From: Chloroflexota bacterium
GTDB lineage: Bacteria > Chloroflexota > Anaerolineae > Aggregatilineales > Phototrophicaceae
Direction of reading: 5' to 3'
Assembly (NCBI GenBank): GCA_016223085.1
Contig: JACRPS010000006.1
Coordinates: forward strand, 186,001 to 250,000
Length of the DNA: 64,000 nt
The position numbers and the translations under genes were made by a program. Shown in pieces: positions 17,061 through 27,895 of this stretch. Position 1 is the stretch's first letter, and every line of letters begins with the position of its first letter. The notes beneath the pieces were generated by a model, which saw only the letters and a program-made list of their open reading frames with translations, searched no databases and had not been told where the DNA came from.

Positions 17061-18110
17061 TTAGTTAAGTTTGGCGAGGTAGGTTTCCGGGTTCTGCTGG
17101 AAAGCGCCCTGGCAGACTGGGCAGCAGAAGTAATACTTCTCCCCTTCGTAGCGGACACTGCCATACGCCTGCTGGGGTTGTATCCGTGCGCCGCAGACCG
17201 GGTCTTTGACCGTTTCGGTAGGTTGATCAGGTTTGCCCAGCGGTAACTCCACAACAAGGTTCGTCCCGCTATCCGGCGCGCTCATAATCTGGATTGTCCC
17301 ATAGAGATGCTGAATGCGCTCCTGCATTCCAAGCAGCCCATAATGACCAGTCCTAGCGAGCTGATCGAAATTTTCTGGAGGACGGAAGCCTACCCCATTG
17401 TCGCATATGCTGAGGCGTACCCTTTGTGGCTGATAATCGATTTCAACTGAAATCCAGGTTGCTTGACCATGTCGCTGTGCATTGTGGATCGCTTCCTGCG
17501 CCACTCGGAACAGCGAAAGCTCATGCCCGGCTTGCAGGCGGCGTTCGATGCCCGTCGTTCGCACTTTCACTTCTGCGCCCGATTCGCTCTCAGCCAACAT
17601 TCGCAGAGCAGGAACTAAACCCAGCTCTTCCAAGGCGGGAGGACGGAGATTGGCGATAAGACGTCGTAATCCCTCAATGGTTTCGACAGCTTGCAAGCGC
17701 GTTGTTTTGAGCATCCCGCTGGCTCGCACCGGGTCTTTTTCTAACCAGCTTGAGGCAAAATCAAGGCTTTGAGCGATTGCCACGAGTGACTGGATGGTAT
17801 CATCGTGGAGTTCATGCGCGATCCGCGCCCGCTCCGCTTCCTGACCATCGGTCAGGGCATGGCGATAGGCAATACCATCGTCGTGACTGCGGCGGACATG
17901 TGCCGCCATGCTCGCCATGGTGCGCCGCAAAATGCCAATTTCAGGAATACCGCCGCATGGCTGCTGGAGTGCCGCAAGATTGCCGCGTGACAGATCTGCT
18001 GTCTGTAAAGCCAGCTTTCGCAGCGGCCTCAGAACGCGATAAACGAGCCAGAAGTTTGTGACCGCGAATAACACCAAAACCGTGAGCGCAACGTGAAACC
18101 AGTCCGTCAA
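17061..18110 (-). CDS. NarL-system histidine kinase with C-terminal YHS domain
   Basis: A 349-residue kinase. One N-terminal membrane helix (about 7-25) is followed by a HAMP-like linker, a HisKA_3 dimerisation domain with phospho-acceptor His102 in ARIAHELHDDT, and an HATPase domain (FRVAQEAIHNAQRHG; GVGFRPP; GLLGMQERI). Residues 302-349 are a YHS domain (KDPVCGARIQPQQ, then YYFCCPVCQGAF) with Cys306, Cys329, Cys330 and Cys333. There is hardly any extracytoplasmic part, so sensing is likely cytoplasmic through the YHS domain. A matching YHS domain sits on the ATPase at 6563-9088. TTG is the start; it overlaps the regulator stop as TTGA behind an AAGGAGGT site. Confidence 0.9.
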   Translation of the reverse strand: MTDWFHVALTVLVLFAVTNFWLVYRVLRPLRKLALQTADLSRGNLAALQQPCGGIPEIGILRRTMASMAAHVRRSHDDGIAYRHALTDGQEAERARIAHELHDDTIQSLVAIAQSLDFASSWLEKDPVRASGMLKTTRLQAVETIEGLRRLIANLRPPALEELGLVPALRMLAESESGAEVKVRTTGIERRLQAGHELSLFRVAQEAIHNAQRHGQATWISVEIDYQPQRVRLSICDNGVGFRPPENFDQLARTGHYGLLGMQERIQHLYGTIQIMSAPDSGTNLVVELPLGKPDQPTETVKDPVCGARIQPQQAYGSVRYEGEKYYFCCPVCQGAFQQNPETYLAKLN

Positions 18111-19373: not shown

Positions 19374-21938
19374 CTATGCCACAGCAGGCGAGGTGGTTTT
19401 TTCTGGGGTTTGGATGATGCCTTTTTCCAACACTGAAGCATCCAGGATACGGGCATTGCGAAGCCGCAGACTATTACTCACCACGAAGATCGAGGAAAAG
19501 GCCATCGCTGCCCCGGCAAGGATAGGTACAAGCGCCCCGGCCATTGCAACTGGAATGAGCAGGATGTTATAGATGAACGCCCAGAATAGATTCTGGTAAA
19601 TCGTCCGCATAGTGGCGCGGCTGAGTGTGATGGCGCGCGCAACGCCACGCAGATCGCCGCTCACCAATGTCACATCCGAGGCTTCCATCGCAATGTCCGT
19701 GCCGGTGCCGATGGCGATGCCAACATCCGCCTGCGCCAGCGCGGGTGCATCATTGATACCGTCACCGACCATTGCCTCGCGCTTGCCTTCAGCCTGCAAC
19801 TGCTTAACGGCCTCGACTTTCTGATTGGGTAACACTTCAGCCAGGACTCGTTCAATTCCTACCTCGTGTGCAATGGCCTGAGCCGTTTTTTCGTTGTCCC
19901 CAGTGACCATGACCACTTCCAGTCCCAGTTGGTGCAGTGCCGCAATCGCTTCTCGCGAACCATCTTTCACAGTGTCGGCAATGCCGATCAAGCCACCCAT
20001 AACGCCGTCTATAGTGACGATGACTACCGTGCGCGCTTTGGCTTGGAGCGCCTCAATTTGCGCTTGTGTCTGTTCCAAGATATGTCCCTGCTCGCGGATG
20101 AAGCGTGGGCTACCCACCAATACGATTTTACCCTCGACAACAGCGCGAATGCCCCGCCCGGACTCGGACTCAAACGATTGAGGCTGTGTAAGAGCAATAC
20201 TGCGTTCCTGCGCCGCTTTAACCACCGCCTGCCCCAGTGGATGCTCGCTGCCACGTTCGGCGGTAGCTGCCAGCCGCAGCAGCTCAATGAGATCGAATCC
20301 ATTTAAGGAGACAATATCGGTGACGCTCGGTTCGCCCTTGGTGATCGTGCCGGTTTTGTCCAGTGCTACTACCCGCACCCGCTTGGCGTTTTCCAGCGCT
20401 TCACTGCTCTTGAACAGAATTCCCATCTCCGCGCCACGTCCCGTACCGACCATAATCGCTGTTGGGGTTGCCAGTCCTAGGGCACACGGGCAGGCAATGA
20501 CCAGGACAGCAATGGCGGGGACGAGCGCGCCCACAAACGAAGTTTGCCCGATAATGAGCCACCCAATGAAAGTGAGCGCCGCCAGCACCAGGACGATAGG
20601 CACAAACACGCTCGATACACGATCAGCAACCCGTTGTATTGGCGCCTTTGACCCCTGTGCCTGTTCGACCAGGCGGATGATTTGCGCCAGGGCAGTTTGC
20701 GCGCCTACTTTCTGCGCTTCGATAATCAACCGTCCCTGTTTGTTGATGGTTGCGCCAATGACTTCGCTGCCAGTTTCTTTGTTCACTGGCAGGCTCTCGC
20801 CAGTGAGCATCGATTCGTCTACCGATGAGCGGCCTTCCACTACGATGCCGTCTACCGGGATACGCTCACCGGGTTTGACGACCAGCACATCGCCGAGCAG
20901 CACGTCGTCAATCGCAATTTCGATTTCCTGATTGTCGCGCAGCACGATCGCTGTTTTGGGAGCCAGCCCCATCAGCTTCTTGATGGCCTCACTGGTGCGC
21001 CCTTTTGCCCGCGCTTCCAGCAGTTTGCCCAGTGTGATCAACACCAGAATCACGGCACCGGTCTCAAAGTAAACATGATCGCCGATAACATCTGTAAAAC
21101 CAAAGACGATGCCTGCCAGCACGGCTACGCTGTAGATATAAGCGGCCATCGTACCGATGGCGATTAGAGTATCCATGTTGGTGTAGCCGTTGCGTGCAGC
21201 CTTGTATGCGCCAACCACGTACTGTTTACCAACGATAATCTGCACGGGAGTCGCCAGCAATCCAAAAATGAACGGCCAACCCGACCACAACAGCCAATCC
21301 AGGATGGGAGTGGGACCAGTCATTGTGCCGTTCATAATATGGGTTGCCATCGGATTGGAACCCATAAAACTTGCCATATACAAATCGCGTGCCATGCTCA
21401 ACAGGAATAAAGGCAGCGCAAAGATTGTGCCGATGATCACCATTCTCTTCTGCCTGTCAATCTCGGCTTGGCGCACAGCACGTTCAGCATCTTCTGGAGC
21501 ATCCATATTCGACAGGTCGAGAACCCCGTAGCCTGCTGCTTCCACCGCTTTGATCAGATCGCCGCGCCGTACAGCGTTGGGCAAATAAGTCACGGTCGCT
21601 ATTTCGGTTGCCAAATTGACATTGACCGACAGCACACCCGATTGTTTGGCGACTGCCCGTTCAACATTGCGAACACAGCTCGCACACGTCATTCCGGTAA
21701 TCGGCAAATCAATAGAAGCAATAGCGACACCGTAACCCGCATTTTTTACCTGCTGGGCAATTTGATTGACGTCTGTTACTGCCGGATCAAAGCTCACTGA
21801 AGCACGTTCAGTTGCCAGATTGACTGAGGCCGCTTGTACTCCTACAGTTTTTTCTAACGCCCGCTCAACGTTACGTACACATCCTGCACAGGTCATCCCT
21901 GTGATGGGAATCTCGATCTTGATGTCCTCACGCACCAT
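19374..21938 (-). CDS. copA: CopA Cu(I)-exporting P1B-1 ATPase
   Basis: An 854-residue intact pump. The ATG at 21938 follows GAGGAGA; the frame runs further up but that part is not coding. Two N-terminal HMA domains carry GMTCAGC and GMTCASC. The core has all P1B-1 marks: TGES, CPC ([13 protein letters not shown]), [46 protein letters not shown] in helix 7 and MAFSS in helix 8. It moves Cu(I) out of the cytoplasm. It lies downstream of the GNAT gene and has its own operator-like site at 22002. It serves as the reference that reveals the deletion in the ATPase at 6563-9088. Confidence 0.95.
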
Positions 21939-22001
21939 AACAAATTTCTCCTCGTGTCCATTTCTGAATTTATGGTAATTACTTTGGCCTGAGCAGAAAC
22001 G

Positions 22002-22017
22002 CGCTAATTGGCGGGTT
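22002..22017. promoter_or_regulatory. Copper-island operator, site 4
   Basis: CGCTAATTGGCG (22002-22013) followed by GGTT, 64 bp upstream of the copA start and just after the stop of the GNAT gene. It matches the palindrome at sites 3 and 5 with two changes. Confidence 0.5.
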
Positions 22018-22695
22018 CTAATCCCTGCAGCACCCACACTCCCCTGACCAACAGTTCGGCTCCGATGTACTCCCTGAGCGCTTCAAGGCAAGAACACAGC
22101 GCCAGCAGGGAGCAACGGTATGGATCATTGCAGGGTGCAGTATTTTGACACCCAGTAACAATGCGTCTTCTAGTGCGCTGAATGAACCGTTACTAATTAA
22201 CCCGACGCCACGCTCATGTTTCAAAAAAGAGAGTTTGCCAACAGGTTGGAAACCTGCCTTCATAATTCCACGACCTGAAGCGTGATTTTCTGGGGCACGA
22301 ATAATCCAAAATCGATCCGTGTTTAGAATTTCCGTTTTGAGAATTCGCTGAAGCAGATGAGGATATATTCCCAATCCGCGCCAAGGAGTGAGGGTGACAA
22401 AATCCCACAGATAGAGATGTCTGGATGGCAACTGAAAGGAGAGATCGAGTTCACCCACATGGGCGCTTCTCGTGGCTACCCAACCGTAGGCTGTAGGAAC
22501 ACCTTTCAGCCAGGCAACGTAAGAATGATGACCATTCTCGCGACGCCTGGCAATCTCAAGTTTGCTCATTTGGGTCAAATTTGCGAGTACGGTATCGTCC
22601 ATCTCTCTCAGGACAGTAAGATCGACAAATTCCGGTAAGGTAGGCAGTGAATCATTACAACCCCAACTAGCCAGCACTTGGTTTGCCACCTCCAC
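22018..22695 (-). CDS. GNAT-family acetyltransferase with Cys-rich tail
   Basis: A 225-residue protein. The middle part (about 45-165) has the GNAT fold pattern, with [22 protein letters not shown] for the acetyl-CoA-binding turn and [18 protein letters not shown] for the last strands. The C-terminal 60 residues hold [12 protein letters not shown] and end [12 protein letters not shown], six cysteines that look like a metal-binding appendage. The substrate is unknown. It lies directly upstream of copA on the same strand and behind the operator at 22742, so it is likely copper-induced. Confidence 0.7.
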
Positions 22696-22844: not shown

Positions 22845-23414
22845 GTGGATGAAAAATGGCGCATATCTTGCTGTGGACTGCCGTTGATCTTCACGATGTG
22901 CGTTTGTTCCACACTGATTTTGATCGCTGCCGCACGTTCTACGTCTGAGAGGCAGCAGACTCAAATGGTGGATGGGCGTTCGAATTCTGCACAGATGCAG
23001 CATTCATCGGGTGACGCACAAATTCAAATACTCGGCAGACGATTTTATGAAATCGAGCTTACGCAGGGACAAGCTAGTTACACACAGTATTGTGCTGCCT
23101 GTCATGGTATTGACGGTCAGGGGCAGTTCCCCGAAGCGCCGCTTGAACCCGATGCCACCGGACGGATCGGCGCGCCGCCGCATAACGAAACCGGGCATAG
23201 CTGGCACCACAGCGATGTGCTGCTCATCCGCTATGTCACCGAAGGCGGTTTCAGTGACCCAGCCCGTTTTTACATCATGCCGCCCTTTGGTGACATCCTG
23301 ACTGATGAACAAATCTTGCTCGTCATTGCCTACATCAAAACGATGTGGACAGACGAACAGCGCGCATCGCAGCGACAGTTGACTGAAGACGAGCAAAGCA
23401 TGTTCTCTGGTTAA
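22845..23414 (+). CDS. Exported mono-haem cytochrome c
   Basis: A 189-residue protein with a hydrophobic N-terminal segment, haem-binding CAACHG (near residue 84), and a Met ligand in FYIMPPFGD. The sequence between is His-rich (PPHNETGHSWHH). It is closely related to the cytochrome at 26920-27387 and shares PPHNE.GH.WHH and IAYIKTMWTDEQR. The GTG start at 22845 is uncertain because the operator half-site overlaps the first codons; an ATG at 22896 is an alternative. It is probably cotranscribed with the selenoprotein gene that follows after 53 bp and may be its electron partner. Confidence 0.8.
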   Translation: MDEKWRISCCGLPLIFTMCVCSTLILIAAARSTSERQQTQMVDGRSNSAQMQHSSGDAQIQILGRRFYEIELTQGQASYTQYCAACHGIDGQGQFPEAPLEPDATGRIGAPPHNETGHSWHHSDVLLIRYVTEGGFSDPARFYIMPPFGDILTDEQILLVIAYIKTMWTDEQRASQRQLTEDEQSMFSG

Positions 23415-23467
23415 AGCGGGCGACGTGCATAGCAGAATATTTTATCTGAGTGTCAAAGGAGGATCTC

Positions 23468-23956
23468 TTGAGCAAATCGAAAAAGCCACAACCTACGAAG
23501 TCATCACAGCGACCCACATGGCTGCTTCCGGCAGTTATTGTTGGCGCAATTGTGGTTGTACTCGCCATCGTTGCCGCTATGACCGGCAGCCGCCGTGAAC
23601 CGTTCGAACCAGAGGTTGCGGGAGCGCCGCGCGCGGAAGTTGACCAGACCAGCATTGATCACGGTGCTGTGCGCTTTGAACAGCCGGTTGAGAGTGTGTT
23701 CCGGGTTCGCAATGTGGGCGATCAACCGCTGACAATCCTGGGCGAACCACGTGTCGAACTGCTGCAAGGGTGCTGACCGCCCCGCGCCGTCGTCAGTTCG
23801 ACGACTATACAGCCCGGAGAAGAAGCAACGATTACGCTGCGCTACACCATGCATGAAGGCATGGGCGGCCAGCATGAGTTCCGCGTGCATGTCCTGACCA
23901 ACGACCCGACTCAGGCAGAGATTCCCTTAACTGTTCGTTCCATGTGGGGTGCGTGA
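23468..23956 (+). CDS. Candidate selenoprotein: membrane-anchored DUF1573-like protein (GC-U-PP)
   Basis: The frame starts at TTG 23468, with AAAGGAGG 9 nt upstream, and continues through an in-frame TGA at 23774-23776 to a stop at 23954. The 162-residue product has one membrane helix (18-40) and an Ig-like DUF1573-type domain (about 58-160: SIDHGAVRFEQPVESVFRV, then ITLRYTMHEGMGG). The TGA is residue 103 in the sequence GCUPPRAVV, where a second Cys would be expected. Codon usage and protein similarity to the family continue unchanged after the TGA. A 17-nt hairpin starts 12 nt after the TGA. Reading as Sec is inference; no sel genes are in the window. Without readthrough the domain would be cut in half. 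Confidence 0.75.
23789..23805 (+). promoter_or_regulatory. SECIS-like hairpin for the DUF1573-like gene
   Basis: A perfect 6-bp stem GUCGUC/GACGAC closes a 5-nt loop AGUUC. It begins 12 nt after the UGA. A small upper stem-loop with GU in the loop about 11 nt after UGA is the known bacterial SelB-binding layout, as in formate dehydrogenase mRNA. Confidence 0.65.
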
Positions 23957-24097: not shown

Positions 24098-24499
24098 CTA
24101 CGGTTCATCGGTTGTAGCCATGCTATTTAGAGCATTTTCAACAGCAGCACGCAGCGATTCGGCTTCGACGATGCCAAAAGAACGATAGACCTCAACACCA
24201 TCCGGGGTGAACAGCATAAAACTGGGATGCCCTGGCAGGTTAAGCGCTTCGAACGTGCGCTGCCCTTCTGCATCGTCCAGCGCATTCAAGGACACAAATA
24301 TCACTTGATCGTGAAATTCATTTTCAAGCCCATGCACGATGGGCGTCATTTGCGCTCAGGGCGGTCAGCCGTCGGTGAAAAAGTAGATAAAGGTAAGCCG
24401 ATCTTGTGCCAAAGGCAGCGTAACGCTGGATTGCAGCGGGGAACTCGCGCAGTCCGTCAGGAGAAACAGCAGCCCCGCCAGCCAATGGAGTTTTTTCAT
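24098..24499 (-). CDS. Candidate double-selenocysteine thioredoxin-like lipoprotein (U-P-P-U)
   Basis: The frame starts at ATG 24499 (MKKLHWLAGLLFLLTDC), a textbook lipoprotein signal with Cys17, and continues through TGA codons at 24367-24365 and 24358-24356 to a stop at 24098. The 133-residue product reads FIYFFTDG-U-P-P-U-AQMTP (U45, U48), then a thioredoxin-like domain with the cis-Pro loop LPGHPSFMLF and DGVEVYRSFG. Both UGA codons fall exactly where CxxC cysteines belong. A 17-nt hairpin starts 11 nt after the second UGA. A gene caller would report only the 83-residue piece from the ATG at 24349. It would act as an extracytoplasmic redox lipoprotein. It follows copB on the same strand. 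Sec insertion is inferred. Confidence 0.78.
24328..24344 (-). promoter_or_regulatory. SECIS-like hairpin for the U-P-P-U gene
   Basis: On the minus strand GCCCAU/AUGGGC form a perfect 6-bp stem with loop CGUGC. It begins 11 nt after the second UGA and 20 nt after the first. Stem length, loop length and the GU in the loop match the hairpin of the neighbouring gene, although the sequences differ. Confidence 0.65.
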
Positions 24500-24516: not shown

Positions 24517-24547
24517 GAGTGAGGCGAACCTGATGTTCACCTCACTC
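24517..24547 (-). terminator. Hairpin between copB and the U-P-P-U gene
   Basis: GAGTGAGGCGAAC pairs with GTTCACCTCACTC over 13 positions with one mismatch and a 5-nt loop. It lies just after the copB stop and before the ribosome site of the next gene, without a T run. It may partly terminate or shield the copB mRNA. Confidence 0.6.
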
Positions 24548-24565
24548 TACATCGAACAAGACGAC

Positions 24566-26797
24566 CTACGCACGAGTCAGGTCGAGTCCGCGCAGGAGCT
24601 GCGCGTTGAGCGACACGATGATGGTACTCACCGACATGAAGACCGCGCCAATCGCCGGGTCGAGCAGAATACCGACGGGCGCGAGAATGCCCATCGCCAA
24701 TGGGATGGCAACCACGTTGTAGCCCGTCGCCCAGATGAGGTTCTGAATCATCTTGCGATATGTTGCCCGGCTTAGACGGATGATTTTGACAATATCCATC
24801 GGATTCGAGCGCACCAGAATAATCCCGGCGCTTTCAATCGCCACATCGGTGCCCGCGCCGATGGCAATGCCGACATCGGCGGTGACCAGCGCCGGCGCAT
24901 CGTTGACACCGTCTCCAACCATTGCCACTTTGTTGCCGCCGCGTTGAAGTTCCTGTACTTTGCTGGCTTTGTGCTCCGGCAGCACCTGAGCGAAGTAGGT
25001 GTCGATCTGCAATTCCTGGGCGACTGCCCGCGCCACCGCTTCACTATCGCCCGTCAGCATGGCAACTTTCAGTCCCAGTTCGTGCAATTCACGAACCGCT
25101 TGGCGGCTTTCCTCGCGGATGACATCGGCAATGGCGAACAGCGCGACAATCTCGCTGTCGTTTGCCAGGTAGATGACCGACTGCCCGGCATTTTCCGCTT
25201 GCTGCTGGGCAGCTTCCAGCGCTGCTGGCACGGTCAAACCCTGCTGCTCAAGCAAGCGTGGGCCGCCGATATAATACGCTGCTCCATTGACAGATGCCTT
25301 GACACCGCGCCCGGCCAGACTCTCGAAGCTGCTGACCGCCGCCGGGCGCACGTTTTGCGCCTGCGCATACTGACGGATGGCCTCCGCTATCATATGTTCG
25401 CTGTCGCCTTCCAGTCCGGCAGCTATACTGAGAACCTCCTCTGCGCTTAAACCATTGGTTGCAAAGTGAACAACACCCTGTTCTCCTTTGGTCAGCGTGC
25501 CGGTCTTGTCGAAGATGATATAGTTCAGGTCTTTTGCGCTTTCCAGCGCGATCCGTTTCCGAACCAGCAGGCCGTTGCGCGCGGAAAGCGTTGTCGAGAT
25601 AGCGACCACCAGCGGCACGGCCAGACCCAGCGCGTGAGGGCAGGCGATGACCAGCACCGTCACTGTGTTACGCACCGCACTGGGAACACTACCCGTAAAA
25701 ACGAGCCAGCCGAGCAGGGTGAGCACACCGGCAATGATGGCAATGATTGTCAGGTAGAAGGCGGCACGCTGCGCCAGCGTTTGCGCGCGCGACTGGCTTT
25801 TCTGGGCTTCTTCCACCAGCCGCATGATGCCCGCCAACGCCGTTTGTTCGCCCACCTGCTGAATGTCAACCCGCAGCGAACCGGAGCCGTTGACGGTACC
25901 GCCGATAACCGTGTCGCCGGGTTTCTTGTCCAGCGGGCGGCTTTCCCCCGTAATCATTGACTCATTGACACTGCTCTCACCCTCCACTACCAGGCCATCG
26001 GCAGGGATACTCGCCCCAGGGCGAATCAGCACACGATCTCCCGCCCGTAACTGACTGACCTCGACAGTCTCGGTTTCGCCCGATGGCAGCAGGCGTTCAG
26101 CCGTATCCGGCAGCAGTTTTGCCAGTTCGCGCAGCGCGCCCTGCGCCTGTCCAACGCTGCGTAACTCGATCCAGTGACCGAGCAGCATCACCGTGATCAG
26201 GGTTGCCAGTTCCCAGAAGAAGTCCATTGGCATTCCCATCGCATCCTGCGGCGGGAAGAAGAACACGCTAACACTGTACAGGTAGGCGGTGGTGATCGCC
26301 AGGGAAATCAGCGTCATCATGCCGGGCTGACGCAGAGCCAGTTCCTGCCGCCCCATGCTGAGAAACGGTAGGCCGCCGTAAAAGAAGATGACCGAACCCA
26401 AGATAGGGACGATCCACTGGCTGCCGGGGAATTCCGGCATGGTGAACCCAAGCCACTGCTGCACCATCGGCGAGTAGAGGACAACGATGATTGTCAGCGG
26501 CAGGTTGACGAAAAAGCGATTACGCATCATGGTGATGTGGCCTTCATGCATCACCCCATGACCGCTGTGGGCATCGTGGGCAGTGTGACCACCATGAGCT
26601 TTGTCGGGTTCCAGCATTTCATTGGCCCGGTAATCCGGGCTATGAGCAGCATGATGAGCCGTCTGATCGAGGGACATCCTATGGTGGTCATGTCCCCCGC
26701 TAGAGGCCTGATTCATAGGGTGTTGAGTATCATGATGATGATGATTGTGCTGTTGATCTGGTGTGGTTACATCTGGTTTTTTTGGAGAAGTATCCAT
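24566..26797 (-). CDS. copB: CopB-type P1B-3 copper ATPase
   Basis: A 743-residue ATPase. The N-terminus (1-90) has no HMA domain but is crowded with His and Met (HNHHHH, GHDHHRM, GGHTAHDAHSGHG), the mark of CopB. The core has [33 protein letters not shown] and the helix-6 motif CPH (IACPHALGLAVP) rather than CPC, which defines the P1B-3 class for Cu(II)/Cu(I). Helices 7-8 carry ATGYNVVAIP and MSVSTIIVSLNAQLL. It exports copper across the membrane and complements CopA. It has an operator-like site upstream at 26874 and the U-P-P-U lipoprotein gene downstream. Confidence 0.93.
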   Translation of the reverse strand: MDTSPKKPDVTTPDQQHNHHHHDTQHPMNQASSGGHDHHRMSLDQTAHHAAHSPDYRANEMLEPDKAHGGHTAHDAHSGHGVMHEGHITMMRNRFFVNLPLTIIVVLYSPMVQQWLGFTMPEFPGSQWIVPILGSVIFFYGGLPFLSMGRQELALRQPGMMTLISLAITTAYLYSVSVFFFPPQDAMGMPMDFFWELATLITVMLLGHWIELRSVGQAQGALRELAKLLPDTAERLLPSGETETVEVSQLRAGDRVLIRPGASIPADGLVVEGESSVNESMITGESRPLDKKPGDTVIGGTVNGSGSLRVDIQQVGEQTALAGIMRLVEEAQKSQSRAQTLAQRAAFYLTIIAIIAGVLTLLGWLVFTGSVPSAVRNTVTVLVIACPHALGLAVPLVVAISTTLSARNGLLVRKRIALESAKDLNYIIFDKTGTLTKGEQGVVHFATNGLSAEEVLSIAAGLEGDSEHMIAEAIRQYAQAQNVRPAAVSSFESLAGRGVKASVNGAAYYIGGPRLLEQQGLTVPAALEAAQQQAENAGQSVIYLANDSEIVALFAIADVIREESRQAVRELHELGLKVAMLTGDSEAVARAVAQELQIDTYFAQVLPEHKASKVQELQRGGNKVAMVGDGVNDAPALVTADVGIAIGAGTDVAIESAGIILVRSNPMDIVKIIRLSRATYRKMIQNLIWATGYNVVAIPLAMGILAPVGILLDPAIGAVFMSVSTIIVSLNAQLLRGLDLTRA

Positions 26798-26919: not shown

Positions 26920-27387
26920 CTACTCACTGGCCTCGGCCTCAGTCACTTGCTGCTGGCGTACTCGCTGTTCATCTGTCCACATCGTTTTGATGTAGGCAAT
27001 GATATTCATGACATCGGTTTCAGAGAGCTGATCTCCAAATGCTGGCATGGGATAGAAATTTTCTGGATCAGTGAGACTGACACCACCTTCAAGAACATAA
27101 CGAATGAGCAGTCCATCCCCGTGATGCCAGGTGTGACCGATTTCGTTGTGGGGCGGCGCGCCCAGCCGCCCGGTTACATCAGGCTGGAGGGGAGCGTTTG
27201 GAAACTGCCCTTCGCCGTTCATACCATGACACGAGGCGCAGTTCTGAACATAGAGCTGCTCTCCAAGAGCCAGTTGCTCGTCACTGAAGCGCTCACCTCG
27301 TACCATTATCTCCGGCTCACCCGTACACGCGGCTAGCAGTGTCACAGCTACAACCGCTAACCACACCATAATTCTCATCATTGGCAC
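26920..27387 (-). CDS. Lipoprotein mono-haem cytochrome c
   Basis: A 155-residue protein with a lipoprotein signal (VAVTLLAACTG), haem site CASCHG (near residue 53), and likely Met ligand in FYPMPAFGD. The PPHNEIGHTWHHGDGLL segment and IAYIKTMWTDEQR near the C-terminus make it a paralogue of the cytochrome at 22845-23414. It follows the rhodanese-like lipoprotein gene after 15 bp and YceI before that, so the three form one operon of exported electron-transfer or sulfur-linked proteins. Confidence 0.85.
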   Translation of the reverse strand: MPMMRIMVWLAVVAVTLLAACTGEPEIMVRGERFSDEQLALGEQLYVQNCASCHGMNGEGQFPNAPLQPDVTGRLGAPPHNEIGHTWHHGDGLLIRYVLEGGVSLTDPENFYPMPAFGDQLSETDVMNIIAYIKTMWTDEQRVRQQQVTEAEASE

Positions 27388-27402: not shown

Positions 27403-27864
27403 TTACTGTTCACTGTTTAACAATTCACGCCCGCTGGACTCCCAGGCGATCATACCGCCGGGAACATCCCAAAGCTGGGTATAACCGAGGTCAATCAGCG
27501 CCCGGCTGGCTTCCTCGCTCATCCGTCCGCTGCGACAGTACAAAATAATAGGCGCGTTTGGGTCAGGTAACGCGCGGGTCAGCGCTTCTATGTCATTGTA
27601 CGGAATACTCAGGTCGGTTTCGGCGACTTCCCCTTCGTAGGGAATGTGAACATTGACAATCGTATATTGATCGGACTCATTAGCGACAATACTGGCAAAT
27701 TCGTCGATGGTTAGAGTTTGATAACTGTTCGCCGAGAGATTGGAAGCGACCGTTGATTCGGATATTTCTGGAACAGGTGTGCCGGATGTACTGCAAGCTG
27801 TCACGGTAGTTGCCAACACCATCATGATGAAACCGACGAGAGTAGACTGAGGCAGTAGCTTCAT
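27403..27864 (-). CDS. Rhodanese-like lipoprotein
   Basis: The ATG at 27864 (MKLLPQ) follows AAGGAG; an ATG six codons earlier is less likely. The 153-residue product has a lipobox (TTVTACST) and a rhodanese domain (about 48-150) with the active-site loop YCRSGRMSEEASRAL carrying the catalytic Cys. Rhodaneses transfer sulfane sulfur or bind thiol-bound species; an extracytoplasmic form may handle polysulfide or detoxify metals. It is the middle gene of YceI-rhodanese-cytochrome. Confidence 0.85.
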   Translation of the reverse strand: MKLLPQSTLVGFIMMVLATTVTACSTSGTPVPEISESTVASNLSANSYQTLTIDEFASIVANESDQYTIVNVHIPYEGEVAETDLSIPYNDIEALTRALPDPNAPIILYCRSGRMSEEASRALIDLGYTQLWDVPGGMIAWESSGRELLNSEQ

Positions 27865-27895
27865 GAAAAACTCCTTGAACACAGGCTAAAGCGAC

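Follow-up and report, generated by a model that had tools for sequence, protein, structure and literature searches.

A conserved thioredoxin-like gene of Chloroflexota with UGA codons at both active-site cysteine positions, encoding a putative double-selenocysteine (UxxU) protein

A 2026 review (PMC13188914) recognizes 119 selenoprotein families. It gives a UxxU motif for the Prx-like PF00578 family, for a mercuric-reductase-like metal-binding protein and for FmdB, and lists thioredoxin (PF00085) as UxxC only and DUF1573 as UGC; PMC9312934 agrees on the Prx-like, mercuric reductase, and DUF1573 entries. UxxU has also been reported in a Prx-like family of marine metagenomes, in a study that describes SelL as Prx-like (PMC2398784), and SelL has a diselenide bond (PMC2397514). 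The motif of SelL is itself UxxU. No UxxU thioredoxin appears among the 119 catalogued families, and a search of the open-access literature, limited to titles and abstract openings, returned nothing describing a UxxU thioredoxin family of Chloroflexota.

We analyzed a 64,000-nucleotide stretch of Chloroflexota DNA (the window), which contains a gene for a thioredoxin-like protein with UGA codons in place of both active-site cysteine codons. We regard this as a real, conserved gene for a double-selenocysteine thioredoxin, with the proviso that Sec insertion and diselenide formation are inferred, in the absence of any wet evidence. The novelty is UxxU in a thioredoxin, the motif itself being known; because the review's rule rests on the same domain carrying a different Sec motif, the protein would constitute a new subfamily. 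A preliminary description of the gene, made without database searches, had stated that no well-described bacterial UxxU lipoprotein beside a copper pump is known, which must be qualified in that UxxU is known from SelL and the Prx-like family.

The UxxU gene, its product and its relatives

The gene lies at 24098..24499 on the minus strand (the preliminary description had given no strand) and comprises 133 codons and a TAG stop. Translated with TGA read as U, its product is MKKLHWLAGLLFLLTDCASS...YFFTDGUPPUAQM...TTDEP, in which the Sec positions U45 and U48 form the motif UPPU. The first in-frame UGA (UGA1, U45), at 24367-24365 on the minus strand, occupies the position of the first, nucleophilic cysteine of thioredoxin, and the second (UGA2, U48), at 24358-24356 on the same strand, that of the second, resolving cysteine; the two are spaced nine nucleotides apart. 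The claims that the frame is continuous and that the UGAs fall exactly at both CxxC positions therefore held in this translation. So did the claim that standard annotation would yield an 83-residue remnant, since standard gene calling recovers only 83 amino acids (24098-24349), starting at Met51 just past UGA2. Met51 was rejected as the start of the gene; methionine occurs at the same place in 11 of 20 CxxC rows.

The product matches Pfam Thioredoxin (PF00085) with 34.9 bits against a gathering cut-off of 23.5, while no NCBIfam model scored above its own cut-off and the Pfam search gave no peroxiredoxin, glutathione peroxidase, PF00578, or PF08534 match at E<=0.001. An AF2 model, computed with Cys substituted for Sec, has a thioredoxin fold with a pLDDT of 88.7; Foldseek ranks thioredoxins at the top (best E 4e-8, TM by target mostly 0.7-0.8), and the solved structures nearest to the model are likewise thioredoxins or proteins with a thioredoxin domain. 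The first strand of the predicted fold precedes the UGAs and the remainder follows them. The proline of the GHP motif (P92), which we take to be at the cis-proline place of thioredoxin, is invariant in the alignment.

The protein begins with a short, hydrophobic leader followed by Cys17 (codon 24449..24451, minus strand), the putative lipidated cysteine, which is invariant in an alignment of 32 sequences. A strict lipobox has Ala, Gly, or Ser before the lipidated cysteine, and one of these is found at -1 in 31 of 31 aligned relatives, whereas the window copy has Asp. The preliminary reading of a lipoprotein-type start thus held in part: the window copy meets the criterion of a hydrophobic signal with an invariant Cys, misfits the strict lipobox at -1, and can be called a putative lipoprotein on sequence grounds. 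Its location on the outer face of the membrane, at the cell surface, is likewise inferred from the signal sequence.

Homologues with Cys or Sec at both positions, whose absence would have refuted the preliminary description, were found. Among 97 distinct matches covering both positions there are 43 UxxU, 27 UxxC, 26 CxxC, 1 UxxS, and 0 CxxU forms, so that the first position is U or C throughout and the second U, C, or, once, S; neither TAA nor TAG occurs at the two active-site positions in any of them. Matches covering only one position or neither were skipped, and each core sequence was counted once. The count is not a census, as loci were fetched by similarity to the UxxU protein family, and several rows with CxxC or UxxC represent ordinary thioredoxins or neighbouring TlpA-like genes. 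By manual count, the same UGA pair is found in about three dozen assemblies; that other assemblies carry the same UGAs excludes sequencing error, which had been named as a further possible refutation.

Some match at E<=0.001 is present in 84 of 98 genomes of the same family, and 22 of the 98 contain a close two-UGA copy (E about 2e-21 or better; manual count). The remaining matches in family genomes are less similar, and many of them contain a single UGA or lack UGA altogether. A scan with one peptide pattern of one genome per species across 84,980 species recovered 30 relatives, all of which we read as titled under Chloroflexi lineages. No relative of the UxxU protein was found in a plasmid collection, and 115 pattern matches in viral contigs included 0 relatives.

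Of nine pairs tried, some sharing a sequence, eight gave a defined dN/dS past UGA2, and in seven of these it is 0.15-0.26. For the window gene and its nearest copy the value past the UGAs is 0.58, based on 13 changes. Although this last pair is higher, the dN/dS values support purifying selection on the region downstream of the UGAs. The tree of the family is built on 95 columns and leaves 40 of 83 inner branches open, so we claim only broad grouping; it omits, as does the acid comparison below, ten rows scoring <48 bits and one TlpA row, leaving 86 of the 97. Within a UxxC group of thioredoxin-like proteins lies one UxxU sequence with the site WUSTU (L086, G059:C7:390320-390625), apparently a second, independent origin of UxxU.

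The UxxU proteins also differ from the classical active site near the motif. In E. coli thioredoxin, deprotonation of the second Cys is assisted by a buried acid, Asp26, located six residues ahead of the first Cys. Selenols are ionised even at neutral pH, and the buried acid would then no longer be needed. Asp or Glu at -6 is present in 0 of 43 UxxU, 16 of 23 UxxC, and 15 of 19 CxxC sequences; the UxxU proteins have Phe (27), Tyr (11), Trp (3), or Leu (2) instead. L086, the UxxU sequence inside the UxxC group, has Tyr there, while the two CxxC sequences that fall within the UxxU group have Asp and His, respectively. Seven of the 23 UxxC sequences likewise lack the acid, among them L082 and L032, both inside the UxxU group. 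Few branches account for the loss (5 independent pairs, of which 2 are supported), and it carries no significance. The missing acid may possibly mark the clade rather than the second Sec, and we take it as no more than a hint that the second position is truly a selenol needing no base.

The SECIS-type hairpin and the selenocysteine machinery

The preliminary description had placed a 17-nt hairpin 11 nt past the second UGA, and this held. The bacterial SECIS-type hairpin GCCCAU-CGUGC-AUGGGC at 24344-24328 (minus strand), recognized by folding and conservation, has 17 nt, with 6 bp and a CGUGC loop. It starts 11 nt past UGA2 and 20 nt past UGA1, and its loop is 17 nt from UGA2 and 26 nt from UGA1. 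The published bSECIS model (PMC13188914, Fig. 2) specifies a loop of 3-9 nt, a stem of 4-16 bp, a G within the first two loop positions, a UGA-to-loop distance of 16-37 nt, and an MFE <= -7.5 kcal/mol. The hairpin satisfies the loop, stem, G, and distance constraints for both UGAs, and satisfies the MFE constraint close to its limit (-7.6 kcal/mol). This answers the preliminary suggestion of a SECIS check. A search of the gene's own genome with Rfam SECIS_1 gave no match; as the model was also silent in every control, the search is uninformative.

As a single sequence the hairpin is only modestly unusual (7 of 200 shuffles equally good; z -2.1), and a longer 40-nt segment that includes the sequence after UGA1 favours an alternative fold of -12.4 kcal/mol. 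The case for the hairpin therefore rests on conservation rather than on single-sequence folding energy. All 6 pairs are formed in 35 of 43 UxxU genes (7 more have five and 1 has four) and in 19 of 23 UxxC genes (the other 4 have five), compared with 0 of 22 CxxC genes; rows scoring <40 bits, namely 4 of the 27 UxxC and 4 of the 26 CxxC, are left out. The hairpin stands at one fixed place relative to UGA1 in both the UxxU and the UxxC forms.

Covariation is evident within the 43 UxxU genes. Stem pair 23-39 is GC in 31 and AT in 6; pair 26-36 is CG in 35, TA in 4, and TG in 4; and pair 27-35 is AT in 33 and GC in 8. The TA form of pair 26-36 comes with a change of Gly to Arg in all 4 cases and the GC form of pair 27-35 with a change of Ile to Val in all 8, so that two double changes alter the amino acid and yet preserve the base pair. 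In total 249 of 258 cells are paired, against a mean of 233.5 after shuffling, and none of 5000 shuffles was as high, though the shuffling ignores kinship. Randomisation of synonymous codons gave a mean of 1.28 full hairpins and a highest value of 6 in 2000 trials, against the 35 of 43 observed. For the CxxC relatives the same control, which drops also one TlpA row and so uses 21 CxxC rows, yielded 47.9 paired cells against 51 of 126 observed, in agreement with chance. Because the observed hairpins far exceed codon randomisation in UxxU genes and match it in CxxC genes, the RNA structure is maintained beyond the demands of the protein, a pattern confined to genes with Sec. From these data we infer a single SECIS for both UGAs, without a systematic test for a second SECIS.

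As for selA, selB, selC, and selD, whose absence was the remaining refutation proposed, all four are present in the gene's own genome, whereas no convincing copies were found in three other UxxU genomes. The own genome scores 73 bits for tRNA-Sec, 449 for SelA, 373 for SelB, and 368 for SelD; the SelD gene itself has an in-frame UGA (L017, G000:C35:83024-83959). In 19 of the 22 genomes with a close UxxU copy, SelA is complete or almost complete in length. Two genomes of the same genus with close copies of the CxxC form, G003 (88% complete) and G005 (97%), show neither SelA nor an above-cut-off SelB, and searches for tRNA-Sec (E<=1e-9) and SelD (E<=1e-30) likewise found nothing, which is the pattern expected upon loss of Sec use.

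The three UxxU genomes in which the machinery went undetected are G037, G049, and G058; SelB did not exceed its cut-off in any of them, and neither tRNA-Sec (at E<=1e-9) nor SelD (at E<=1e-30) was found. SelA has no match in G058 and weak ones in G037 (45.8 bits) and G049 (38.8 bits); these exceed the formal Pfam cut-off of 22.8, but true copies score about 450, and we take the weak matches for paralogues. G037 is 99% complete in about 10 contigs, G049 93% complete in about 1030 contigs, and G058 95% complete in one contig, so fragmentation excuses the missing genes less easily in G037 and G058 than in G049. A single missing gene is weak evidence, since SelD was missed in G012 too, despite the presence of the other three components. 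The UxxU genes of G037 and G049 are closely related to each other and, with a dN/dS of 0.15 past the UGAs, are under purifying selection there. Unbinned or unseen sel genes, recent loss, and transfer are all possible in these genomes, and we cannot choose among them. Their UxxU loci (L021/L101 in G037, L023/L104 in G049, and L034/L161 in G058) have CcdA, DUF2085, TlpA, and cytochrome c in the neighbourhood.

Gene neighbourhoods and a DUF1573 neighbour

The copper pump that the preliminary description had placed beside the gene was confirmed. A heavy-metal P-type ATPase with an IACPH motif, which we take to be CopB-like, is encoded upstream on the same strand (24566..26797, minus), ending 66 nt before the UxxU gene. 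A second heavy-metal P-type ATPase, with two HMA domains and an IACPC motif, is encoded at 19374..22037 (minus) and is taken to be CopA-like. Two cytochrome c domain proteins (22845..23414, plus, with the start codon as per the ORF tool, and 26920..27387, minus) and a rhodanese-domain protein (27403..27882, minus) lie nearby; these genes were assigned from ORFs and Pfam matches. A possible metal sensor, a histidine kinase ending in a YHS domain (17061-18110, minus), is also encoded close to a copper-type ATPase. The intergenic region between the pump and the UxxU gene contains a strong 13-bp hairpin (24517..24547, minus; MFE -24.3 and z -6.75 for a 47-nt segment), which could be terminator-like or attenuator-like, in which case the two genes are perhaps unequally transcribed.

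Convergent with the UxxU gene is a gene for a DUF1573-like protein (23450..23956, plus; PF07610 match of 43.4 bits) with one internal in-frame UGA (23774-23776) in the context GC-U-PP, at which standard calling truncates it (23776). A SECIS-type hairpin follows at 23789..23805 (plus), 12 nt past the UGA. Thirty distinct relatives, including the window copy, have UGA in 18 cases and Cys in 12. A hairpin of >=6 bp starting 11-12 nt downstream is found in 18 of 18 UGA copies; among the Cys copies, 4 of 12 have a 5-bp hairpin and 8 of 12 have none. We infer from sequence that this is a second selenoprotein gene. It adjoins the UxxU gene also in G012 and L085, and lies about 3 kb off in L118 and about 4.6 kb off in L124. 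When the entire window was screened for hairpins that might reveal more selenoprotein genes, only the DUF1573 gene emerged; the screen missed the UxxU gene, which we attribute to an overlap filter, and so is not exhaustive.

The comparison of gene surroundings covered 45 distinct neighbourhoods (42 UxxU, 1 UxxC, and 2 CxxC), each spanning between 3.6 and 18.5 kb; two loci that duplicate others were left out, as was L166, a duplicate of L121. Neighbour labels rest on cluster representatives checked by Pfam, with DUF305 and HMA assigned via window genes, and the halves of UGA-split TlpA genes were merged under one label. A heavy-metal ATPase cluster occurs in 21 of the 45, within 3 kb in 16, a count without a measured background rate for such pumps; a copper ATPase is not seen in the other 24, in some cases owing to short contigs. 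Cytochrome c genes are found in 16 neighbourhoods, followed by DUF2085 (11), methyltransferase (10), rhodanese (9), TlpA-like (8), DsbA-like (8), HMA (6), cupredoxin (5), DUF3105 (5), CcdA-like (4), DUF305 (4), and multicopper-oxidase-like (4) genes, the last label being our own reading. TlpA-like genes with an in-frame UGA (WUQPC) adjoin UxxU genes in L117, L119, L121, and L126 and are further candidates for exported selenoproteins.

Proposed function, alternatives and known systems

We consider it likely that the gene encodes a membrane-anchored thioredoxin with two Sec residues and a diselenide, decoded via one hairpin, and that this protein probably serves copper and cytochrome c homeostasis as a reductase; Sec insertion, the diselenide, and the role are all inferred. 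The firm part of this explanation is a double-Sec thioredoxin with one hairpin, for which decoding is well supported by sequence. The preliminary claim that a UxxU site would form a diselenide remains a reading that only the sequence supports, neither Sec insertion nor the diselenide having wet evidence. According to the proposed mechanism, SelB and Sec-tRNA would insert Sec twice, nine nucleotides apart, on a single hairpin, and the thioredoxin-fold protein would be exported to the outer face of the membrane via its lipoprotein-type signal. The two selenols (U45 and U48) would cycle with a diselenide, and CcdA/TlpA-type electron carriers would feed the extracytoplasmic UxxU reductase, which may maintain in reduced form copper sites, the cysteines of cytochrome c, or the Sec-containing DUF1573 protein encoded next to it. 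Which of these, if any, is the substrate is a hypothesis that could as well prove wrong as right.

A bolder reading joins these elements, and on balance we lean slightly against accepting it as a whole. It holds that a Chloroflexota clade has a true diselenide exported thioredoxin, with one SECIS for two UGAs (at 11 and 20 nt); that the resolving Cys was replaced apparently at least two times, the acid being given up each time; and that the protein works with the Cys-Sec DUF1573 protein in an extracytoplasmic pathway reducing copper and cytochrome c.

Alternative explanations differ in how much of this they leave standing. One that remains possible is that the double-Sec protein mainly binds Cu(I) or another soft metal at its two selenolates, as a chaperone or buffer by the pump. 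The heavy-metal ATPases, cupredoxin, DUF305, and multicopper-oxidase-like genes in the neighbourhoods (21, 5, 4, and 4 of 45) favour metal binding, as does the occurrence of UxxU in a 'metal-binding protein' family of the PMC13188914 catalogue. However, thioredoxin features are retained, including the invariant P92 of the GHP motif and the PF00085 match, and the TlpA-, DsbA-, and CcdA-like neighbours suggest thiol redox chemistry. A cell-surface, Sec-based scavenger of peroxide or selenium species, rather than a disulfide reductase, seems unlikely. Many thioredoxin-fold selenoproteins are thought to have redox or antioxidant roles (PMC13188914), and the inferred surface location would suit a scavenger, but there is no peroxiredoxin or glutathione peroxidase match at E<=0.001 and the gene context is one of copper, cytochrome c, and Dsb/TlpA genes.

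Two further alternatives concern decoding. We judge it very unlikely that UGA1 alone is efficiently read as Sec while UGA2 mostly terminates, leaving little full product and a regulatory role for the short product or for read-through. The hairpin of the UxxC relatives is equally distant from the first UGA, so the register fits UGA1, and the efficiency at UGA2 is unmeasured; nevertheless, the region past UGA2 contains most of the thioredoxin fold and is under purifying selection, and the distance of 17 nt from UGA2 to the loop is within the published 16-37 nt. A reading of the UGAs as sequencing errors or as signs of a pseudogene, or of the 83-residue remnant as a separate gene from Met51, is all but excluded. 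In its favour, M51 after UGA2 opens a standard ORF, and three genomes without detected sel genes carry UxxU copies. Against it, the UGA pair recurs across assemblies with no TAA or TAG in its place, the sequence before UGA1 is conserved and encodes the first thioredoxin strand, and selection persists past the UGAs. Chance, sequencing error, and a pseudogene were accordingly rejected on the grounds of conservation, covariation, and selection, the UGAs, their spacing, and the hairpin all being kept in relatives.

If the double-Sec thioredoxin is as we propose, a single set of related bacterial proteins offers one active site in three versions, CxxC, UxxC, and UxxU. It would then be testable how a bacterial ribosome inserts two close Sec residues with one hairpin, and what a cell gains from a diselenide over a disulfide or a selenenylsulfide. 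Since the buried acid is lacking, the second Sec may alter the chemistry of the active site. Gene calling in Chloroflexota, moreover, apparently overlooks exported selenoproteins encoded beside copper and cytochrome genes.

Among known systems, SelL of aquatic animals and marine bacteria resembles the UxxU protein in its diselenide within a redox motif, which for the UxxU protein is inferred. SelL, however, is Prx-like, whereas the UxxU protein belongs to PF00085 and has no Prx match at E<=0.001 (no SelL sequence was compared); it is also lipoprotein-type, and its 30 relatives among named genomes, found with one peptide pattern, are all from Chloroflexota. The Prx-like thiol:disulfide oxidoreductases of PF00578 (UxxC/UxxU) have the UxxU motif in common with it, but the UxxU protein lacks a PF00578 match at the same threshold. 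Nor does it meet the domain criterion (PF00578/PF08534) of the TlpA/ResA-type thioredoxins of cytochrome c maturation, or the criterion of a classical thioredoxin active site, CxxC or UxxC with a buried acid. Its DUF1573 neighbour shares PF07610 and an in-frame UGA with the DUF1573 selenoprotein (catalogue motif UGC; NCBIfam OS_HP2_seleno), but differs in having a Cys-Sec motif (GCUPP) and an OS_HP2 score of 37 against a cut-off of 100. With the Sec thioredoxin of PF00085 (UxxC; PMC13188914), the UxxU protein has a common fold and Sec at the first position, and its UxxC cousins share the hairpin site; relative to that thioredoxin, it adds a putative Sec at the resolving position and an export signal, and is without the buried acid.
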